Origin: Alteripontixanthobacter maritimus
GTDB taxonomy: Bacteria > Pseudomonadota > Alphaproteobacteria > Sphingomonadales > Sphingomonadaceae
Assembly: GCF_003340475.1 (NCBI RefSeq)
Contig: NZ_QBKA01000002.1
Span: forward strand, 1,559,501 to 1,623,500
Length of the DNA: 64,000 nt
Reading direction: 5' to 3'
The first letter of the stretch is position 1, and each line of letters begins with the position of its first letter. This document shows, in pieces, positions 23,169 to 46,965 of this stretch. The notes below the pieces were generated by a model that made no database searches, was not told where the DNA came from, and worked only from the letters and a program-made list of their open reading frames with translations. The position numbers and the translations under genes are program-made.

Positions 23169-23747
23169 TTAGGGTGAAACCCAGCGCCCACCCCCACCAT
23201 CGGCCAGATCGAAAACAGCGCGCCGGTGACCGGTATGCGCGAGGCTGAACCAGTCCGCCCGTTCGATCCGAACGAGCAGGATGGCGAAATTCGTGCGCGC
23301 CGGTAGCAGCTCCTCATCGGTTGGTTCGACACCCTCGAAGCGTTTCGGCAGGCCACTTGTCGGCACATCGGACACCGCGCCGGGCCCTTCGCCAAGATAG
23401 CAGCGGCGCGCAAAATTGTCGCTGTTCGCCCAGGCCGAATCGACAAGTGGCGTGCTGCGTTCGATGCTGGCCGTGCCGCGCAGGCGCAGCTGCAGTTTCT
23501 CGCCCCGGTCGTAGCCTACTATGCCGACTGCCGGGTTGCTTTCTATCACCACAACTTTTGGTGAGCGGACATCCGTGTGGAAACGCAGCGTCCAGCTCCC
23601 CGCGTCGAACGCGCGCACCACCATCACCCGCGCATCGGTATCGCTCGTGGCCACAATCGGCGTATGCAGCGGATTACGCCGGTTGGCAGCAGCATCCGCA
23701 AGGCGGCTGGCAATGTCGGCGCGAATATCATCCAGAGTTTCAATCAT
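23169..23747 (-). CDS. Pyridoxamine 5'-phosphate oxidase-like flavoprotein
   Basis: A 192-residue split-barrel protein. PLHTPIVATSDTDARVMVVRAFDAG followed by LRFHTDVRSPKVVVIESNPAVGIVGYD is the standard PNPOx-like barrel that binds FMN (sequence read in parts). The C-terminal FAILLVRIERADWFSLAHTGHRRAVF is typical of the DUF/PNPOx-like group and not of PdxH itself, whose phosphate-binding motifs are missing. Role unknown; an FMN- or haem-linked oxidoreductase is likely. The start MIETLDDIRAD is preferred to an upstream Met. Convergent with ettA. Confidence 0.82.
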   Translation of the reverse strand: MIETLDDIRADIASRLADAAANRRNPLHTPIVATSDTDARVMVVRAFDAGSWTLRFHTDVRSPKVVVIESNPAVGIVGYDRGEKLQLRLRGTASIERSTPLVDSAWANSDNFARRCYLGEGPGAVSDVPTSGLPKRFEGVEPTDEELLPARTNFAILLVRIERADWFSLAHTGHRRAVFDLADGGGGRWVSP

Positions 23748-23844
23748 GGCTGGCACACGCGCATGAGGTGCGCCTTTGTCAAGCGGTGGCCACCGACTAG
23801 CGTTGCGCACCACAGCATGCTGTTCAGGATAAACGCCCCCAATA

Positions 23845-23871
23845 TGAACAACAACCGTAACACTTTGTTCA
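23845..23871. promoter_or_regulatory. TGAACAA/TTGTTCA inverted repeat upstream of the RcnB-like gene
   Basis: TGAACAA (23845-23851) and TTGTTCA (23865-23871) form a perfect 7-bp inverted repeat with a 13-bp spacer, and another TGTTCAG half-site lies at 23821-23827. It sits about 80 bp before the ATG at 23954 and could be an operator. No regulator is adjacent, so this is only a candidate. Confidence 0.3.
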
Positions 23872-23953
23872 GATATGGGTCAGTGTGCATTGCCTACAAC
23901 AGCTTATCAAATCGCCGCGCAAGGTGGGGGCGGCACGCTAACGGAGGGCGGCA

Positions 23954-25045
23954 ATGACTATCGATACACTTTTGAAAGGTTCCGGCATGGCAGCAATTGC
24001 TGCCGTGTTGGCCTTTGGGGCAACACCGGCGGCGATGGCCGCGGTTGCCGCGACCGAAGCGGCTGCCGAACGGCCGGACCGGGAGCGTGGTTATACTCGC
24101 GACAAGCAGACGCGCGGTGAGCGTCGGGCTGCGCGACAGCAGCGGAAGGAAGCCCGCAGTGAGCGTCCACGCGCTCGCAAACAACAGGCCGCACCCCGCC
24201 GTGCCCCAGCGAGAGCTACACAGCAGCAACGTCAGGCTCGCCGTGCAGCAGTTGCGCCTAATCGCGCCCGCAATGTCGATCGTGTCGATGCGCGCCGTCA
24301 GGCGGCAGTACGCCAACAGGCCGCGCAGCGCCGCGATAACGCTCGCCGCGACAGATCACAGCGTAGTGATCGCGCCGACCGGTTCCGCCGGGGTGATCGC
24401 CGCGGCGGTGTGACGGACCAGACCCGCCGGATCGAGCAGGCGCGCCGCGATGCAATTCGCAACAATCGCGGTGACTACCGCAGGGATGCTAGGCGTGATG
24501 CACGACGGGATGCTAGGCGCGATGCTCGCCAGGACGCCAGGCGCGATGCCCGCCGTGATGCGCGGCAGGATGCAAGGCGCGACGCACGGCGCGATCGCCG
24601 TCAGGACGCGCGTCGGGACGCTCGCCGTGATCGCAGGCAGGACGCCCGCCGCGACTGGCGCCGCGACCAGCGTCAGGATGCGCGCCAGGACTGGCGTCGT
24701 GACCAGCGCCGCGAGGCACGCCGCGATGCGCGCCGTTGGAACCGCCAAGCCTGGCGCAACAACAACCGGTACAACTGGTACAATTACCGGAACAATCACC
24801 GTAACGTCTTCCGTCTGGGCCGGTACTATTCGCCGTATCGGAATTACCGCTATAGCCGCCTGAACGTCGGGTTCTTCCTGGGGAGTGGGTTCTACAGCAG
24901 CCGTTACTGGATCAACGATCCATGGAATTATCGCCTTCCGGCCGCCTATGAAGGTTATCGCTGGGTCCGGTATTACGACGATGTGCTGCTGGTCGATACC
25001 TACACCGGCGAAGTGGTGGACGTGATCTACGACTTCTTCTGGTAA
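23954..25045 (+). CDS. Exported Arg-rich RcnB-like protein with RRDA tetrapeptide repeats
   Basis: A 363-residue, extremely basic exported protein. Residues 1-29 look like a signal peptide (MAAIAAVLAFGATPAAMA). Residues 40-175 are rich in Arg, Gln and Ala. Residues 176-259 are 21 unbroken tetrapeptides of the type R-R/Q-D-A. The last 70 residues (YSPYRNYRYSRLNVGFF to YEGYRWVRYYDDVLLVDTYTGEVVDVIYDFFW, read in parts) match the RcnB C-terminal domain, a periplasmic fold linked to metal homeostasis in E. coli. GGAGGG lies 6 bp before the ATG. Function unknown; charged periplasmic binding to envelope polymers or metals is inference. Confidence 0.88.
   Translation: MTIDTLLKGSGMAAIAAVLAFGATPAAMAAVAATEAAAERPDRERGYTRDKQTRGERRAARQQRKEARSERPRARKQQAAPRRAPARATQQQRQARRAAVAPNRARNVDRVDARRQAAVRQQAAQRRDNARRDRSQRSDRADRFRRGDRRGGVTDQTRRIEQARRDAIRNNRGDYRRDARRDARRDARRDARQDARRDARRDARQDARRDARRDRRQDARRDARRDRRQDARRDWRRDQRQDARQDWRRDQRREARRDARRWNRQAWRNNNRYNWYNYRNNHRNVFRLGRYYSPYRNYRYSRLNVGFFLGSGFYSSRYWINDPWNYRLPAAYEGYRWVRYYDDVLLVDTYTGEVVDVIYDFFW
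24479..24730 (+). repeat. 21 x 12-nt in-frame repeat encoding R-R/Q-D-A units
   Basis: Twenty-one consecutive 12-base codon quartets encode RRDA or close variants (RQDA, RRDR, RRDW, RRDQ, RQDW, RREA). Third codon positions and Arg codon choice vary freely: CGC, CGT, CGG, CGA and AGG are all used. The DNA copies have therefore diverged while the peptide pattern is kept. Confidence 0.9.
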
Positions 25046-25115: not shown

Positions 25116-25697
25116 TTACGGCTCTATCGTCCTGGCGGGCGCACCGCCGACCTTGCCGAAAGGCAACATTCGGAAGATACCGCCGTCTCTGTCGAAGAAC
25201 GTATGTTTCAGCGCACCCAGAATATGCAGCGCGACGAGATACACCATGATCTCGCCACCGGTCCCATGAATGCCGAAAATCGTCTCCGCCAATGCGCTGT
25301 TCTCGCCCACCGGGAGCGGCGGCATCGTAAACAGGCCGAACATGTCTATGCTCCGCCCGGCCAGCGAGTTTGCCAGCCAGCCGCCGATCGGCAGCCCGAT
25401 CAAAAGAATGTAGAAAACGAGATGCGTGGTCCGGGCAAGCACCCGCTCCCACGTTTTGTAGTTGGCGGGCAATGGCGGAATTTTGTGCGTGAGGCGCCAT
25501 GCGATGCGGCCCAGCGTCAGCACCAGGATGGTAATGCCCAGCGCCTTGTGATCTGCGAAGATGGCGATCGCTTCGCTGCGAGTGGCGGCATGTTCGGCAT
25601 TTTCGGCCAGCCGCCAGTTCCAGATGACCGCCACGGCAATTACCCAGTGAAACAGCATCGCGGCCAGCGAATAACGGTGTTTGGCAGTCTCAGTCAT
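25116..25697 (-). CDS. Cytochrome b561 family protein
   Basis: A 193-residue membrane protein with four hydrophobic helices. MLFHWVIAVAVIWNWRLA opens helix 1 with His17, and FADHKALGITILVLTLGRIAW holds His50 in helix 2. His144, His158 and His165 lie in the later helices (FGIHGTGGEI and LVALHILGALKH). These are the expected ligands for two b-type haems in the di-haem b561 group, which moves electrons across the inner membrane, often from quinol. Not part of an operon here. Confidence 0.9.
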   Translation of the reverse strand: MTETAKHRYSLAAMLFHWVIAVAVIWNWRLAENAEHAATRSEAIAIFADHKALGITILVLTLGRIAWRLTHKIPPLPANYKTWERVLARTTHLVFYILLIGLPIGGWLANSLAGRSIDMFGLFTMPPLPVGENSALAETIFGIHGTGGEIMVYLVALHILGALKHTFFDRDGGIFRMLPFGKVGGAPARTIEP

Positions 25698-25814: not shown

Positions 25815-26492
25815 ATGACGATCACGCACACCACATTACCCGCGCCGGACAAGGCTGCCCTCGCCCGCCAGGGTCGCGCCGTGCGCAAACGGTTGCAGGC
25901 CGATCCACGCGCCTACCAGGTACCGACGGACAAGGCGGAAATCTTTGCCTTCGGGGACTTTCTTACCGCGTCGGAATGCCGCCGACTGACCGGCCTGATC
26001 GACGATATCGCCACTCCCAGCCAGCTGCATGAGCAGGCTTATGTGGAGGGGTTTCGGACGTCATACTCGGGCAATTTCGACCCCCATGCGCCGTTCATTC
26101 GCGGCATCTCCCGCCGGATCGACGATCTGCTGGGCGTGGACGACAATATGGGCGAGGCGATTCAGGGGCAGCGTTATCTGCCGGGCCAGCAGTTCAAACC
26201 GCACAATGACTGGTTCTATACCGACCAGGATTATTGGGAGATCGAACGCAAGCGCGGCGGGCAGCGCAGCTGGACGGCGATGGCTTTCCTCAACGAAGTG
26301 GAAGCCGGCGGCACCACCGATTTCACCGAAGTCGGTATCTCCATCGAACCCAAGCCCGGCGTGCTGCTGGTCTGGAACAACGCCCTGCCCGACGGGATGC
26401 CCAACGAAGATACGATGCACGCCGGCACCCCGGTGGAAGCAGGCGTCAAATACGTCATCACCAAATGGTATCGCACGCGCAAATGGAATTGA
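25815..26492 (+). CDS. 2-oxoglutarate/Fe(II) oxygenase (prolyl 4-hydroxylase-like)
   Basis: A 225-residue cytoplasmic dioxygenase of the prolyl-4-hydroxylase alpha-subunit type. Iron ligands are His130 and Asp132 in QQFKPHNDWFYTD and His202 in DTMHAGTPV. Lys212 in GVKYVITKWYR should bind 2-oxoglutarate. The double-stranded beta-helix between them includes LNEVEAGGTTDFTEVGISI and GVLLVWNN. In bacteria these act on elongation factor Tu or small peptides; the substrate here is unknown. The first 40 residues look like a small helical extension. Confidence 0.93.
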   Translation: MTITHTTLPAPDKAALARQGRAVRKRLQADPRAYQVPTDKAEIFAFGDFLTASECRRLTGLIDDIATPSQLHEQAYVEGFRTSYSGNFDPHAPFIRGISRRIDDLLGVDDNMGEAIQGQRYLPGQQFKPHNDWFYTDQDYWEIERKRGGQRSWTAMAFLNEVEAGGTTDFTEVGISIEPKPGVLLVWNNALPDGMPNEDTMHAGTPVEAGVKYVITKWYRTRKWN

Positions 26493-26498
26493 GGGTGG

Positions 26499-28130
26499 TC
26501 AGTCCGCCGACGTAAGCGCGTCCCCGATCAGTCTGCGCGCATTGTCGATCCCGTACAGCGCGATGAAGCTGCCCATGCGCGGACCCTGCTGCGATCCGAG
26601 CAGGATTTCGTACAGCGCACGGAACCAGTCGCGCAGCGTTTCGAAGCCATAGGCCTCGTCCTTGCCGATCTCGTAGACGATGGTCTGCAAGTCTTCCGCA
26701 GGCGTGTCCGCAGGCATTTCCGCCAGCCGTGCATCGAGCGCGCGCAATGCGTCGGCCTCGGCACCGACCGGTGCGCGTCGCTGCAGCGTCGGGGCCACGA
26801 AGTCGCGATTATATGCGAGAGCGTTTCCGACCAGCTCATCGAGCTGGGGGTGCTTCGCAGGATTGGCATCCGGCACGTAATTCGCCAGATAGGACCATAC
26901 CTGCTCGCGCGTGGCTTCCGCCCCAAGCACACCCACCAGATTGAGCAACAGGCTGTAGGTGACCGCCAGACTGTCCGCCGTGACCACCAGCGACCCTTCC
27001 GACGTTACGCGGTCCAGATGCCAGACCGGATTGCCGAGCTGCTTGTCGAGCGATTGTTCATCCAGCCGTTCACGAAACTGCCAGTAATCGTCGACCGCAC
27101 GCGGTATCACGCCGCCGTGAAGCTGCTTGGCGCTCTTGGGATTGGGAAAGATGTAGAAGCCCAGCGATTCGTCGCTGCCATAAGTTAGCCATTGTTCGAT
27201 GGTCAGCCCGTTGCCCTTTGACTTGGAGATTTTTTCGCCCTTCTCGTCCAAGAACAATTCGTAGATCAGGCCTTCCGGCTTGCGGCCGCCCAGCACTTTC
27301 GCGATCCGCCCGGACTGGACGCCGCTGTCGGTCAGGTCCTTGCCATACATTTCATAATCGACGCCCAGCGCCACCCAGCGCATCGCCCAGTCGACTTTCC
27401 ATTGCAGCTTCGCCTGACCGCCCAGCGCGGACTGCTCCACCGTGTTGTCGTTCTCGTCCTGAAAGCGGATAGTTCCGGCTTCCGCATCGACCACTTCCAC
27501 CGGCACCTGCAACACCACGCCCGTTTCAGGGCTGACCGGCAGGATCGGGGAATAGGTCTTGCGGCGTTCCTCCCGCAGTGTCGGAAGCATAATATCGAGG
27601 ATGGCGTCGTTGCGGCGAAGCACGCCCCGCAGCGCATCGTCGAACCCGCCCGAAGTGTAACGCTGCGCGCCTGACACAAATTCATAGTCGAAGCCGAACT
27701 GGTCGAGGAATGCGCGCAGTTGGGCGTTGTTATGCGCGGCGAAACTTTCGTGATCGGTGTCGAACGGATTGGGAATCCGGCACAGCGGCTGGCCCAGATG
27801 CGCGTGAAGCATCTGCTGGTTCGGCAAATTGTCCGGTACCTTGCGCAGGCCGTCCATATCGTCGCTGAAGGCAACCAGCCGAGTCCTGCCGTCTTCAGGC
27901 TTCGCGCCGATGATAGCCTCGTATGCGCGGCGTACGAAAGTGGTGCGCAGGACTTCCTGAAATGTACCGATATGCGGCAGGCCCGACGGCCCGTACCCCG
28001 TTTCAAACAGCACGGGCTCAAGATTACCGTCCGCGCCCTTCTTGCCATCGGGGTAGCGCTTAGCAATGCGCTGCGCCTCGATGAACGGCCAGGCCTTGGA
28101 ACTGCGCGCTGCTTGCATGAGATCGGTCAT
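26499..28130 (-). CDS. lysK: Class I lysyl-tRNA synthetase
   Basis: A 543-residue class I LysRS, as found in archaea, spirochaetes and many alphaproteobacteria instead of the class II LysS. The HIGH-type motif is HIGTF at residues 53-57, and the KMSKS-type motif KISKSKGN starts near residue 300. The Rossmann core is followed by the helical anticodon-binding region to the C-terminus. The ATG at 28130 is chosen because the open frame continues another 40 codons upstream into the end of the GGDEF gene. Confidence 0.93.
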   Translation of the reverse strand: MTDLMQAARSSKAWPFIEAQRIAKRYPDGKKGADGNLEPVLFETGYGPSGLPHIGTFQEVLRTTFVRRAYEAIIGAKPEDGRTRLVAFSDDMDGLRKVPDNLPNQQMLHAHLGQPLCRIPNPFDTDHESFAAHNNAQLRAFLDQFGFDYEFVSGAQRYTSGGFDDALRGVLRRNDAILDIMLPTLREERRKTYSPILPVSPETGVVLQVPVEVVDAEAGTIRFQDENDNTVEQSALGGQAKLQWKVDWAMRWVALGVDYEMYGKDLTDSGVQSGRIAKVLGGRKPEGLIYELFLDEKGEKISKSKGNGLTIEQWLTYGSDESLGFYIFPNPKSAKQLHGGVIPRAVDDYWQFRERLDEQSLDKQLGNPVWHLDRVTSEGSLVVTADSLAVTYSLLLNLVGVLGAEATREQVWSYLANYVPDANPAKHPQLDELVGNALAYNRDFVAPTLQRRAPVGAEADALRALDARLAEMPADTPAEDLQTIVYEIGKDEAYGFETLRDWFRALYEILLGSQQGPRMGSFIALYGIDNARRLIGDALTSAD

Positions 28131-28200
28131 GCCAAGCGCTTTCGCCGAGGCGGGATTATGTTGCAAGCGCGAAGGCAGGCGGCGTGTTTTGCGAACGGGC

Positions 28201-29370
28201 TTATGGCTGCCGTGCAACGATGCGATTGCGGCCCTGTTGCTTGGCTGCATACAGAGCCTCGTCCGCCAGCCTCAGGACGTCGCTTGCCGGAACGCCGGGT
28301 TCCCGCTGCGTCAGTCCGGCCGAAAAGGTAATCATCCCGAGTTCCTTGCCGGTGCGGCGATCTTTTAACCGGCGCTCGCCCATGGATGCGCGGGATTGAT
28401 CGAGGTGCCTGTGCGCATCATCCAGCGCCAAACCTTCGAACAGCAAGGCGAACTCCTCCCCGCCGTGCCGCGCGACATAACAATCGGCGCCGGTTGTGCG
28501 GGAAAGATGCTGGGCCACCTCGCGCAGCACGCGGTCGCCCGTATCGTGACCATAAGTATCGTTGAACTGCTTGAAGTGATCGATGTCGCAGAACCCTACG
28601 CAGATGGGCGGTGCGTTGTGTTTCGCATGCGCCGTATCGCCATCATCTGCCGGTCCGTCATTCTCGCGGATCGCCAGTTCCAGCCGCGTGGCGAAGGCCC
28701 GGCGGTTGGGCAGGCCCGTCAAGTGATCCTGCGCCGCCTGCCTGCGGGCCTTGTCGAGATCGCGGCGCATGGTGCCGGCGCGTTCTTCGGTTTCGATCAG
28801 TTTGCCGTGCAACGTGCGCGTGTGGCGAACCATGCCCTGCACCAGATCGACCAGGCTATCCAGGTCGCTCCCCTTGCCTTCGCCGATCCTGTTACCGCCC
28901 TGCTCCAGCGTATCGCCGTAATCCGAGGTGGCAGTGCTGGCGCTTTTCGCGGCGTGTTCCAGGGCGACGGCCTGCTGTTCGAGATCGTGCAGCAGTTCTT
29001 CGTTCTGCTGGCGCTCGTTCGTGCGCCGGCCCTGTGCGGTCAGTCCCTCGATCCAAGGCTGCGTGATACGCTGCCCCGCATCTTCGCGTTCGCGCACCTT
29101 GCGGACCAGCGTTAAATCGCTGCCGACCACGAAATCATGTGCGGCGCGCAGGGTTGCAGGTGTTACGCCGAGACGGTGGCTCGAAAGAAACTGGCCGATA
29201 TCTGCGAGCAGTTGTTCGTCATGCCCTTGCGGCGGTTCCTCCACGACGGCGGGGCTGGAGAACATTCCGATCAGGCGGTCGATCGCTCCCGGCGCCTGCA
29301 CAGCAGCGCGGCCGGCAATATGGCTTGCGGTGGTGGGGGCTGCTTGCCGGGACGGGTGAGGATCGCGCAT
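28201..29370 (-). CDS. Diguanylate cyclase (GGDEF domain)
   Basis: A 389-residue cytoplasmic protein. The N-terminal part is helical, and residues about 95-215 contain a long charged segment consistent with a signalling coiled coil. The GGDEF domain begins DHLTGLPNRRAFATRLELAI and has the metal site ICVGFCDIDHFKQFNDTYGH. The active-site signature is RHGGEEFALLF, an intact GGEEF. The canonical RxxD inhibitory site before it is absent (TTGADC in that position), so feedback by c-di-GMP may be reduced. It makes c-di-GMP from GTP. No membrane segments. It diverges from the helicase gene. Confidence 0.93.
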   Translation of the reverse strand: MRDPHPSRQAAPTTASHIAGRAAVQAPGAIDRLIGMFSSPAVVEEPPQGHDEQLLADIGQFLSSHRLGVTPATLRAAHDFVVGSDLTLVRKVREREDAGQRITQPWIEGLTAQGRRTNERQQNEELLHDLEQQAVALEHAAKSASTATSDYGDTLEQGGNRIGEGKGSDLDSLVDLVQGMVRHTRTLHGKLIETEERAGTMRRDLDKARRQAAQDHLTGLPNRRAFATRLELAIRENDGPADDGDTAHAKHNAPPICVGFCDIDHFKQFNDTYGHDTGDRVLREVAQHLSRTTGADCYVARHGGEEFALLFEGLALDDAHRHLDQSRASMGERRLKDRRTGKELGMITFSAGLTQREPGVPASDVLRLADEALYAAKQQGRNRIVARQP

Positions 29371-44892: not shown

Positions 44893-46965
44893 TTACCAGG
44901 CAACCTGGAACCCGCCGCGTGCACCCACTTCACCGCTGTCGAACCCGACACCGACACCGGCAGAAACCGAAGCGTTCTCGCTTACTCGCGCCGAAACGGC
45001 CACAGTACCCGCACCCTGGTCTTCAAAGTAGCCGACACCGCCGGACAGGCCGAAAGTCGTGCCTGCGGGAAGCATCGGGCTTTCCATCGCGAGTGCCATC
45101 GCAACACCTTCGTTTGCCTTGTCGATCCCGCGGCGGTTGGCCGAGGTTTCGCCGAACAGCGTATTGATGTTGGCAGTCTGCTGGCTGGTCAACGCCTGCA
45201 GCGATGCGATGTTGCCGGTGTTTGTCGCAACGTTTGCATTCGTCGTCGCCAGCTGCGCATTGGTCGCCATGGAGGTCAGGTTTACACCCTGGCCAAGCGT
45301 ACCGGTACTGTCGACTGTCGCGAAGAACAGATTGCCGTTCTGCGCTGCCGTGCTGGCTGCCAGATTACCGATCGTGACGGAGCTTCCCGCCCCGCCGAGT
45401 ACAACCTGCCCGTCACGGGTTGCTGTTGCCTGGTAACCAACAGCCGTCGATCCGTCGAAGCCTGCATTTGCGGACTGGCCGAGCGCGGTGGACTGGAAGC
45501 CCGCCGCGTTTGCCTGACGACCCAAGGCCGTGGACTGGCCGCCAGTAGCAGAAGCCTGCCAACCGAATGCCTGTGCACCCCGGCCGCTGGAAACCGCTTC
45601 GCCGCCAATGGCAGTGGAGTGGAAGCCGGTTGCCTGCGCGGCATCGCCGACTGCAACCGCGTCTTCGTCGCTGGCTACTGCGAGGTTGCCGACTGCGGTC
45701 GAGGTCAGTGCGGATGCGACCGCGCCTTCACCGACTGCGGTCGAACGCTCACCCGTGGCTTGCGCGATGTGGCCCAATGCAGTTGCCCGCACACCGGTTG
45801 CCGTTGCCCGCCAGCCGAATGCAGTTGCGGCCGTGTTGGTGGCTTGCGCCTGACCGCCGACCGCAGTCGAGGACGTGCCGCTGGCGGTGGTCGCAAGGCC
45901 GCCGGTCGCCGCATCGCGGTTGCCGCCGATCGCCACTGCATCGAGGCCGGTGGCACGTGCGCCGTTACCGACTGCAATGGCATTGTCAGACGTGGCGTCT
46001 GCGTCTTCACCGACAGCCAGCGAGAACTCGCCGGTTGCATCTGCAAGGTGGCCGAATGCCTGTGCCCGTGTGCCGGTCGCGTTGGCGCGCCAGCCGACAG
46101 CCGTCGTCCCAGCGCCTTGAGCAACCGACTCGCCGCCCAGAGCGGTGGTCGAATTGCCGGTAGCGCGCGACGTGTCGCCCAGAGCGAGTGCATCGATACC
46201 GTTGGCAATCGCTTCATTGCCGATCGCGGTAGCGTTGTCCGACTGTGCGTCGGCATTTTCCCCGATGGCGACAGAGCGCGTGCCCTGTGCCGTCGCGAGA
46301 TGGCCCAATGCGGTCGAACGTTCGCCCGATGCGCTTGCGCGCCAGCCGAATGCCTGACCGGCCAGACCCGTCGCCGAGCTTTCCGAACCTACGGCCGTGC
46401 TGTTCACGCCCGACGCATTTGCTGCCTGACCGACCGCAACCGCGTCCGTGTTGGTGGCCTGCGCCTGAAACCCGACCGCTGTTGCTGTTAGGCCGGTTGC
46501 ATCGGTTTGCGAACCGATGCCGGTGGCGCCGAAGCCGGTTGCCACGGCATCTTGCCCGAACGCAGAACTATTTACGCCCTGCGCACGCGCTGCGGCACCG
46601 ACTGCGGTCGAGTTCTGGTTGGATGCAGTGGACGACGCACCAACGGCCGTAGCATTCGAGTTGCTGGCATTGGAGTTTGCACCATTGGCCGTAGCGTTGA
46701 AGCCCGCCGCGTTGCTGTCCTCGCCCGTAGCCGTCGTGTTCGCGCCAGTAGCCGTCGCGTTTTCACCGCAAGCCAGAGCATTATCGCCGGTGGCATCTGC
46801 GCCGCCATCGGTATCGACGCCGTCGGTTGCCGTTCCGTCGTCATTGGTATCGAGTAGGCATTCTTCGGCAGCCACGGTCGTTGGCGTGGCAATAACAAGC
46901 GCGATGGCGGATACTGACGCTGCAAGCGTCAATCCTGCAGCAATATTGGAGGACAGTTTACTCAT
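44893..46965 (-). CDS. YadA-type trimeric autotransporter adhesin
   Basis: A 690-residue type Vc autotransporter. The signal peptide ends near residue 33. An Asp-rich segment with two Cys (C36, C66) follows. Residues 63-525 form a left-handed beta-roll head of about 14-residue AxAxGxxxxA repeats (STAVGxxAxATG type). A short stalk (about 555-610) and the C-terminal YadA anchor (GVAMALAMESPMLPAGTTFGL to FQVAW) follow, with the terminal Trp expected for BAM recognition. Three copies form the outer-membrane barrel. AAGG lies about 12 bp before the ATG. The head contains higher-order repeats (see findings). Confidence 0.94.
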   Translation of the reverse strand: MSKLSSNIAAGLTLAASVSAIALVIATPTTVAAEECLLDTNDDGTATDGVDTDGGADATGDNALACGENATATGANTTATGEDSNAAGFNATANGANSNASNSNATAVGASSTASNQNSTAVGAAARAQGVNSSAFGQDAVATGFGATGIGSQTDATGLTATAVGFQAQATNTDAVAVGQAANASGVNSTAVGSESSATGLAGQAFGWRASASGERSTALGHLATAQGTRSVAIGENADAQSDNATAIGNEAIANGIDALALGDTSRATGNSTTALGGESVAQGAGTTAVGWRANATGTRAQAFGHLADATGEFSLAVGEDADATSDNAIAVGNGARATGLDAVAIGGNRDAATGGLATTASGTSSTAVGGQAQATNTAATAFGWRATATGVRATALGHIAQATGERSTAVGEGAVASALTSTAVGNLAVASDEDAVAVGDAAQATGFHSTAIGGEAVSSGRGAQAFGWQASATGGQSTALGRQANAAGFQSTALGQSANAGFDGSTAVGYQATATRDGQVVLGGAGSSVTIGNLAASTAAQNGNLFFATVDSTGTLGQGVNLTSMATNAQLATTNANVATNTGNIASLQALTSQQTANINTLFGETSANRRGIDKANEGVAMALAMESPMLPAGTTFGLSGGVGYFEDQGAGTVAVSARVSENASVSAGVGVGFDSGEVGARGGFQVAW
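45391..46779 (-). repeat. Adhesin head repeats, 14-residue period with an 84-residue super-repeat
   Basis: The coding repeat spans residues 63-525. GWRA/GWQA landmarks occur at residues 207, 291, 384 and 468, that is, spacings of 84, 93 and 84. The 93 spacing includes an insertion around GGNRDAATGG. Each unit is six 14-residue turns. Confidence 0.85.

Follow-up and report, generated by a model that had tools for sequence, protein, structure and literature searches.

An Arg/Asp quartet array in an exported RcnB-like protein of Alteripontixanthobacter maritimus is one lineage's version of a fast-changing, Arg-rich family linker

Proteins with the RcnB domain (PF11776) include RcnB/YohN of the E. 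coli type (NMR structure 2L1S), which is short and without an Arg-rich linker. The C-terminal domain of CigR (4EW5, Salmonella) is a second structure for comparison, and CigR is an inner membrane protein for which we know of no Arg/Asp repeat linker. An rcnB mutant of A. baumannii had compromised membrane integrity and increased colistin sensitivity (PMC13371490), a precedent for an envelope role of the RcnB domain only. Among charged sequences, the closest described systems are the charged single alpha-helices (SAHs) and the arginine-enriched mixed-charge domains (R-MCDs), the latter with a composition rule of at least 20% Arg, more than 40% charged residues and a net positive charge (PMC12629991). 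Our literature search found no publication on a sphingomonad RcnB.

In the window (the whole stretch of 64,000 nucleotides that was analysed), the gene at 23954-25045 on the forward strand encodes a 363-residue exported RcnB-like protein, identified by a profile match and by syntenic orthologues. A Shine-Dalgarno-like GGAGGG is found in the sequence at 23943-23948 on the same strand, 5 bases upstream of the ATG. Residues 1-29 (23954-24040, forward strand; MTIDTLLKGSGMAAIAAVLAFGATPAAMA, cut AMA/A) were read by eye as a Sec signal peptide, and the N-termini of the orthologues are similar; the predicted peptide contains neither a twin-Arg motif nor a lipobox. Export to the periplasm, which an earlier note on this DNA had also suggested, is thus a prediction that leans on this reading. 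The conserved C-terminal domain (residues 260-363, 24731-25042, forward strand) is approximately 70% identical among orthologues and was modelled by AF2 at pLDDT 92.9. It contains the PF11776 match (residues 310-356, 24881-25021, forward strand; E=8.6e-16, 58 bits), well above the curated cut-off of 25.9, which agrees with the RcnB C-terminus recognised earlier. The best PDB match of the AF2 domain was RcnB 2L1S (prob 1.00, E=4.9e-3 and TM 0.61 by target length, with 57 columns aligned at rmsd 1.5), followed by the CigR C-terminal domain (prob 1.00, TM about 0.46); neither fold match had E below 0.001, and the family profile matched the 2L1S sequence weakly (E=0.1). The protein shares the C-domain profile and predicted export with RcnB/YohN, which is its best though not a firm fold match; CigR differs in its inner membrane location.

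Between the signal peptide and the C-domain lies a linker of about 230 residues with 35% Arg and a net charge of +44. Its first part (residues 30-175, 24041-24478, forward strand) is Arg-rich, with an AF2 helix at residues 103-150 and block pLDDT up to 86. The last third, adjoining the C-domain, is the quartet array (residues 176-259, 24479-24730, forward strand). The mature protein contains 97 Arg, 3 Lys, 1 His and no Cys or Met. It is encoded by the only RcnB-domain gene in the genome, in which no second copy was found. The neighbours are a divergent PPOX-type flavoprotein gene (23169-23813, reverse strand), a convergent cytochrome b561 gene (25116-25697, reverse strand) and a 2OG-Fe(II) oxygenase gene (25815-26492, forward strand). 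An ORF of 583 residues at 26499-28250 on the reverse strand, which also adjoins several orthologues, probably encodes a class I lysyl-tRNA synthetase, to judge by its sequence. The EcfG general-stress promoter (GGAAC-N-CGTT) was found upstream of 0 of 91 orthologues, and the TGAAC-N16-TGTT that the window contains at 23845 was attributed to chance.

The 21 unbroken 12-base units claimed in the earlier note were found at exactly 24479-24730, 252 bases that divide into 21 x 12, share the reading frame of ORF 23954-25045 and read R-(R/Q)-(D/E)-(A/R/W/Q). The first position is Arg in all 21 units and the second is Arg in 15 and Gln in 6. The third is Asp in 20 and Glu in 1, and the fourth is Ala in 15 and Arg, Trp or Gln in 2 each, both as previously described. 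All 21 units are distinct at the DNA level, and where two units carry the same residue, their codon identity equalled the shuffled expectation at every lag from 1 to 15. At a lag of 3 units, pS was approximately 0.86 and pN was 0.13. Since all units differ and the silent codons are randomised, the array has no recent origin in slippage or gene conversion, and the synonymous saturation indicates selection on the peptide. DNA slippage as the source of the array was rejected on the same grounds. Hence, the peptide was retained while its silent sites drifted, and the repeat is real and selected at the protein level, which upheld the earlier view that codons vary between units and that the peptide pattern is held beyond slippage.

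Beneath the quartets we observed a 12-residue super-repeat, with the units RQDARRDARRDR, RQDARRDWRRDQ and RQDARQDWRRDQ; the amino acid identity at a lag of 3 units was 0.875 versus 0.748, a level reached by 0 of 5000 shuffles. AGG, a rare Arg codon, was enriched in the array (6 of 38, compared to 3.7% in the neighbouring genes, p=0.003), possibly as a relic of the birth of the array through duplication. Neither feature appears in the earlier note. The charge power of the array at a period of 4.0 residues reached 34.8, where the 95% limit from shuffling was 6.0, so the period-4 pattern is far above chance for the given composition. A search of the PDB for a homologue of the array found none. 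An antisense ORF of 147 residues (24356-24799, reverse strand) overlaps the array and is rich in Ala, Val, Ile and Pro; it was not accepted as a gene, being the expected mirror of Arg, Asp and Ala codons in GC-rich DNA.

The C-domain was found in 219 of 250 genomes of the Sphingomonadaceae, in 84 of 96 genera; the genus of the window is represented by its genome alone. Where loci were compared with their flanks, the cytochrome b561, flavoprotein and oxygenase genes were retained in most (the cytochrome gene beside most orthologues, the flavoprotein gene beside many and the oxygenase gene beside nearly all those compared), and these shared flanking genes establish the RcnB-like proteins of the family as orthologues. 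Their linkers, compared in 92 distinct full-length proteins, are dissimilar in sequence. Long runs of quartets occur only in the window protein (21 units) and in L056 from one other genus (14 units), all others having 5 or fewer. The L056 array is spelled differently (RREARREYRRDQ), and its 36-base units are 72-83% identical with synonymous change free. The array was in none of the three loci from a genome scan for close relatives. Absence of the repeat from all relatives, which the earlier note had named as refuting its reading, is thus nearly the case for the exact array, only L056 having anything similar, yet almost every orthologue has an Arg-rich linker of other wording in that slot. The linker is common to the family and the RRDA quartets are its variant in one lineage; their exact form is not conserved.

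DNA tandem arrays were detected by TRF in 76 of the 92 orthologue genes, nearly all within the linker and with differing units of 4 to 58 residues, the commonest best periods being 11 and 8. The linkers have a median length of 198 residues, with median Arg of 28%, median Lys of 0%, Asp plus Glu of 17% and a net charge of +18.5. Judged by sequence comparison, nearly all orthologues keep an Arg-rich composition at this place while the sequence itself is rewritten. The net charge ranges from +2 to +57, and a few orthologues (L080, L093) have Gly/Asn-rich or short linkers; a strong cationic charge is therefore not strictly needed, which weighs against the tether proposed below.

Charge along the 92 linkers showed, on average, a preferred spacing. 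The autocorrelation had positive values at lags 4, 7, 8, 11 and 15 and its minimum at lag 2, and the mean spectral power peaked at 3.66 residues. In 62 linkers the charge peak exceeded all shuffles, with 36 of the 62 at 3.45-3.85. When the DNA arrays, which make up 26% of linker residues, were masked, the peak remained at 3.66 with a power of 3.23 compared to 1.32 when shuffled, and an origin of the 3.66 period in 33-bp DNA repeats was rejected for this reason. At each linker's own best period the acidic residues were placed at an angle of about 172 degrees to Arg (vector strength 0.85), and they were depleted at a distance of four residues from Arg (log2 -0.8 to -0.9). The phasing is a matter of sequence statistics over 92 related and hence not independent linkers, and it suggests that in most of them helix-like phasing stacks like charges, the reverse of the SAH salt-bridge rule. 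The window protein is an outlier: the charge of its array repeats at 4.00 and shows no power at 3.66, and the linker ahead of the array lacks a significant charge period. The RcnB-like family is ordinary in the Sphingomonadaceae; its helix-phased charge pattern is unusual, and the new element is the conservation of composition and charge phase under rapid turnover of the linker sequence.

We propose, with about even confidence, that the linker is a fast-turning-over, cationic mixed-charge tether binding envelope polyanions. Its sequence is rewritten through repeated tandem duplication and decay, with composition and, in most orthologues, charge phasing kept, and the window lineage settled on RRDA quartets. 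After export the linker would act as a multivalent cationic tether. The polyanions bound by its Arg side chains would be those of the envelope (uronic-acid glycosphingolipids, LPS, peptidoglycan-linked polymers or extracellular DNA), and the Asp residues scattered among the Arg would maintain its solubility. The conserved C-domain, held near the outer membrane by the linker, would then perform the specific job. In Sphingomonas, LPS is replaced by uronic-acid glycosphingolipids (PMC6445935). The array (45% Arg, 70% charged, net +17) and the linker of the window protein fall within the R-MCD composition rule, as do an 80-residue stretch in 87 of the 92 orthologues and the whole linker in 67. R-MCDs are eukaryotic and nuclear whereas this linker is bacterial and exported, and the likeness is one of composition only, with no homology implied. 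The family presents an exported bacterial linker that is continually rewritten through tandem duplication with composition and charge phase retained, and the roughly 90 variants of a single design that it supplies could be used to ask which features of sequence grammar are important to Arg-rich low-complexity domains.

The linker might instead be a disordered, soluble entropic spacer, shaped by weak solubility selection and high-GC codon bias, with the repeats as by-products of slippage. The fast change in linker sequence and length, the tandem arrays in 76 of 92 genes and the low AF2 confidence are all consistent with such a spacer. However, it is doubtful, because Lys is nearly absent from the mature protein while the neighbouring genes have 107 Lys to 187 Arg codons, the residues of the array are retained at saturated synonymous sites, and the charge phasing persists with arrays masked.

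The phasing could also be read, tentatively, as a two-faced (Janus) charged helix of the 11-residue/3-turn type in a near-universal exported protein of the Sphingomonadaceae. Arg would then occupy one face and Asp/Glu the opposite face, with i+4 pairs of opposite charge avoided. Helices of this kind might assemble by themselves into a layer in which their faces stack, or they might rest with the Arg side on anionic glycosphingolipids. The RRDA array would represent a variant with a period of 4.0, its stripes winding round the helix.

A stiff SAH spacing the RcnB domain from its anchor appears unlikely. Like charged SAHs, the linker is long, highly charged and, in most orthologues, helix-phased; the 3.66 peak extends outside the DNA repeats, AF2 placed helices over much of the linker, and most array units contain Asp to Arg(+3) pairs. 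Among Arg pairings, E to R(+3) is reported to be the most stabilising (PMC5347031). Unlike in SAHs, the i,i+4 pairs are like-charged and Asp replaces Glu. Asp is a poor helix former. As a period-4 repeat places like charges at i,i+4, only the Asp to Arg(+3) pairs are favourable. Opposite-charge pairs per residue in the array were 0.19 at i+3 and 0 at i+4, compared to 0.19 and 0.58 for like charges; the net charge-pair score was -0.58, while the designed SAH (AEEEKKK)n scored +1.37. A classical SAH was therefore rejected, as its charge-pair geometry fails in an array where opposite pairs do not outnumber like pairs. In the family, opposite charges at i,i+4 are depleted, and in 54 of 92 linkers the charge-pair score fell under that of shuffled sequences (z < -2). 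AF2 gave a low-confidence helix for residues 178-206 only, with pLDDT of approximately 36-61 in the array and below 50 for 201-259. The charge-alternating single helix put forward in the earlier note was not supported by these results.

A Ni/Co role of the RcnB-like protein is unlikely despite the PF11776 match and the similarity to 2L1S, because, in contrast to RcnB/YohN, the genome of the window has no match to the NicO/RcnA partner exporter (PF03824), which occurs in 18 of 237 good family genomes versus 210 of 237 for the RcnB-like protein, and because the array has no His, Cys or Met; a metal-binding array, which the earlier note had allowed, as part of a Ni/Co homeostasis factor akin to E. 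coli RcnB is highly improbable given the single His of the mature protein. Annotations of 'RcnB, nickel/cobalt regulator' in the Sphingomonadaceae reflect a domain match, usually without the partner exporter.

Other repeats were observed in the same slot. Six of the 92 linkers (L027, L046, L068, L079, L082 and L087) carry tandem 12-residue EF-hand-like loops (DRNRDGRIDRRY), calcium-loop repeats that share both the slot and the 12-residue period with the RRDA array; the L046 linker passes the Pfam EF-hand_5 cut-off (26.4 against 25.9). Beyond the family, the RcnB-domain protein L097 (RRDYRRDRREDRRDW) also has an Arg/Asp repeat linker, as does L100 (RQDLREERRDLRQARR), a paralogue within the family. 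Elsewhere in the window, two further short tandem arrays with 21-base units are present at 45772-45828 and 46722-46761.
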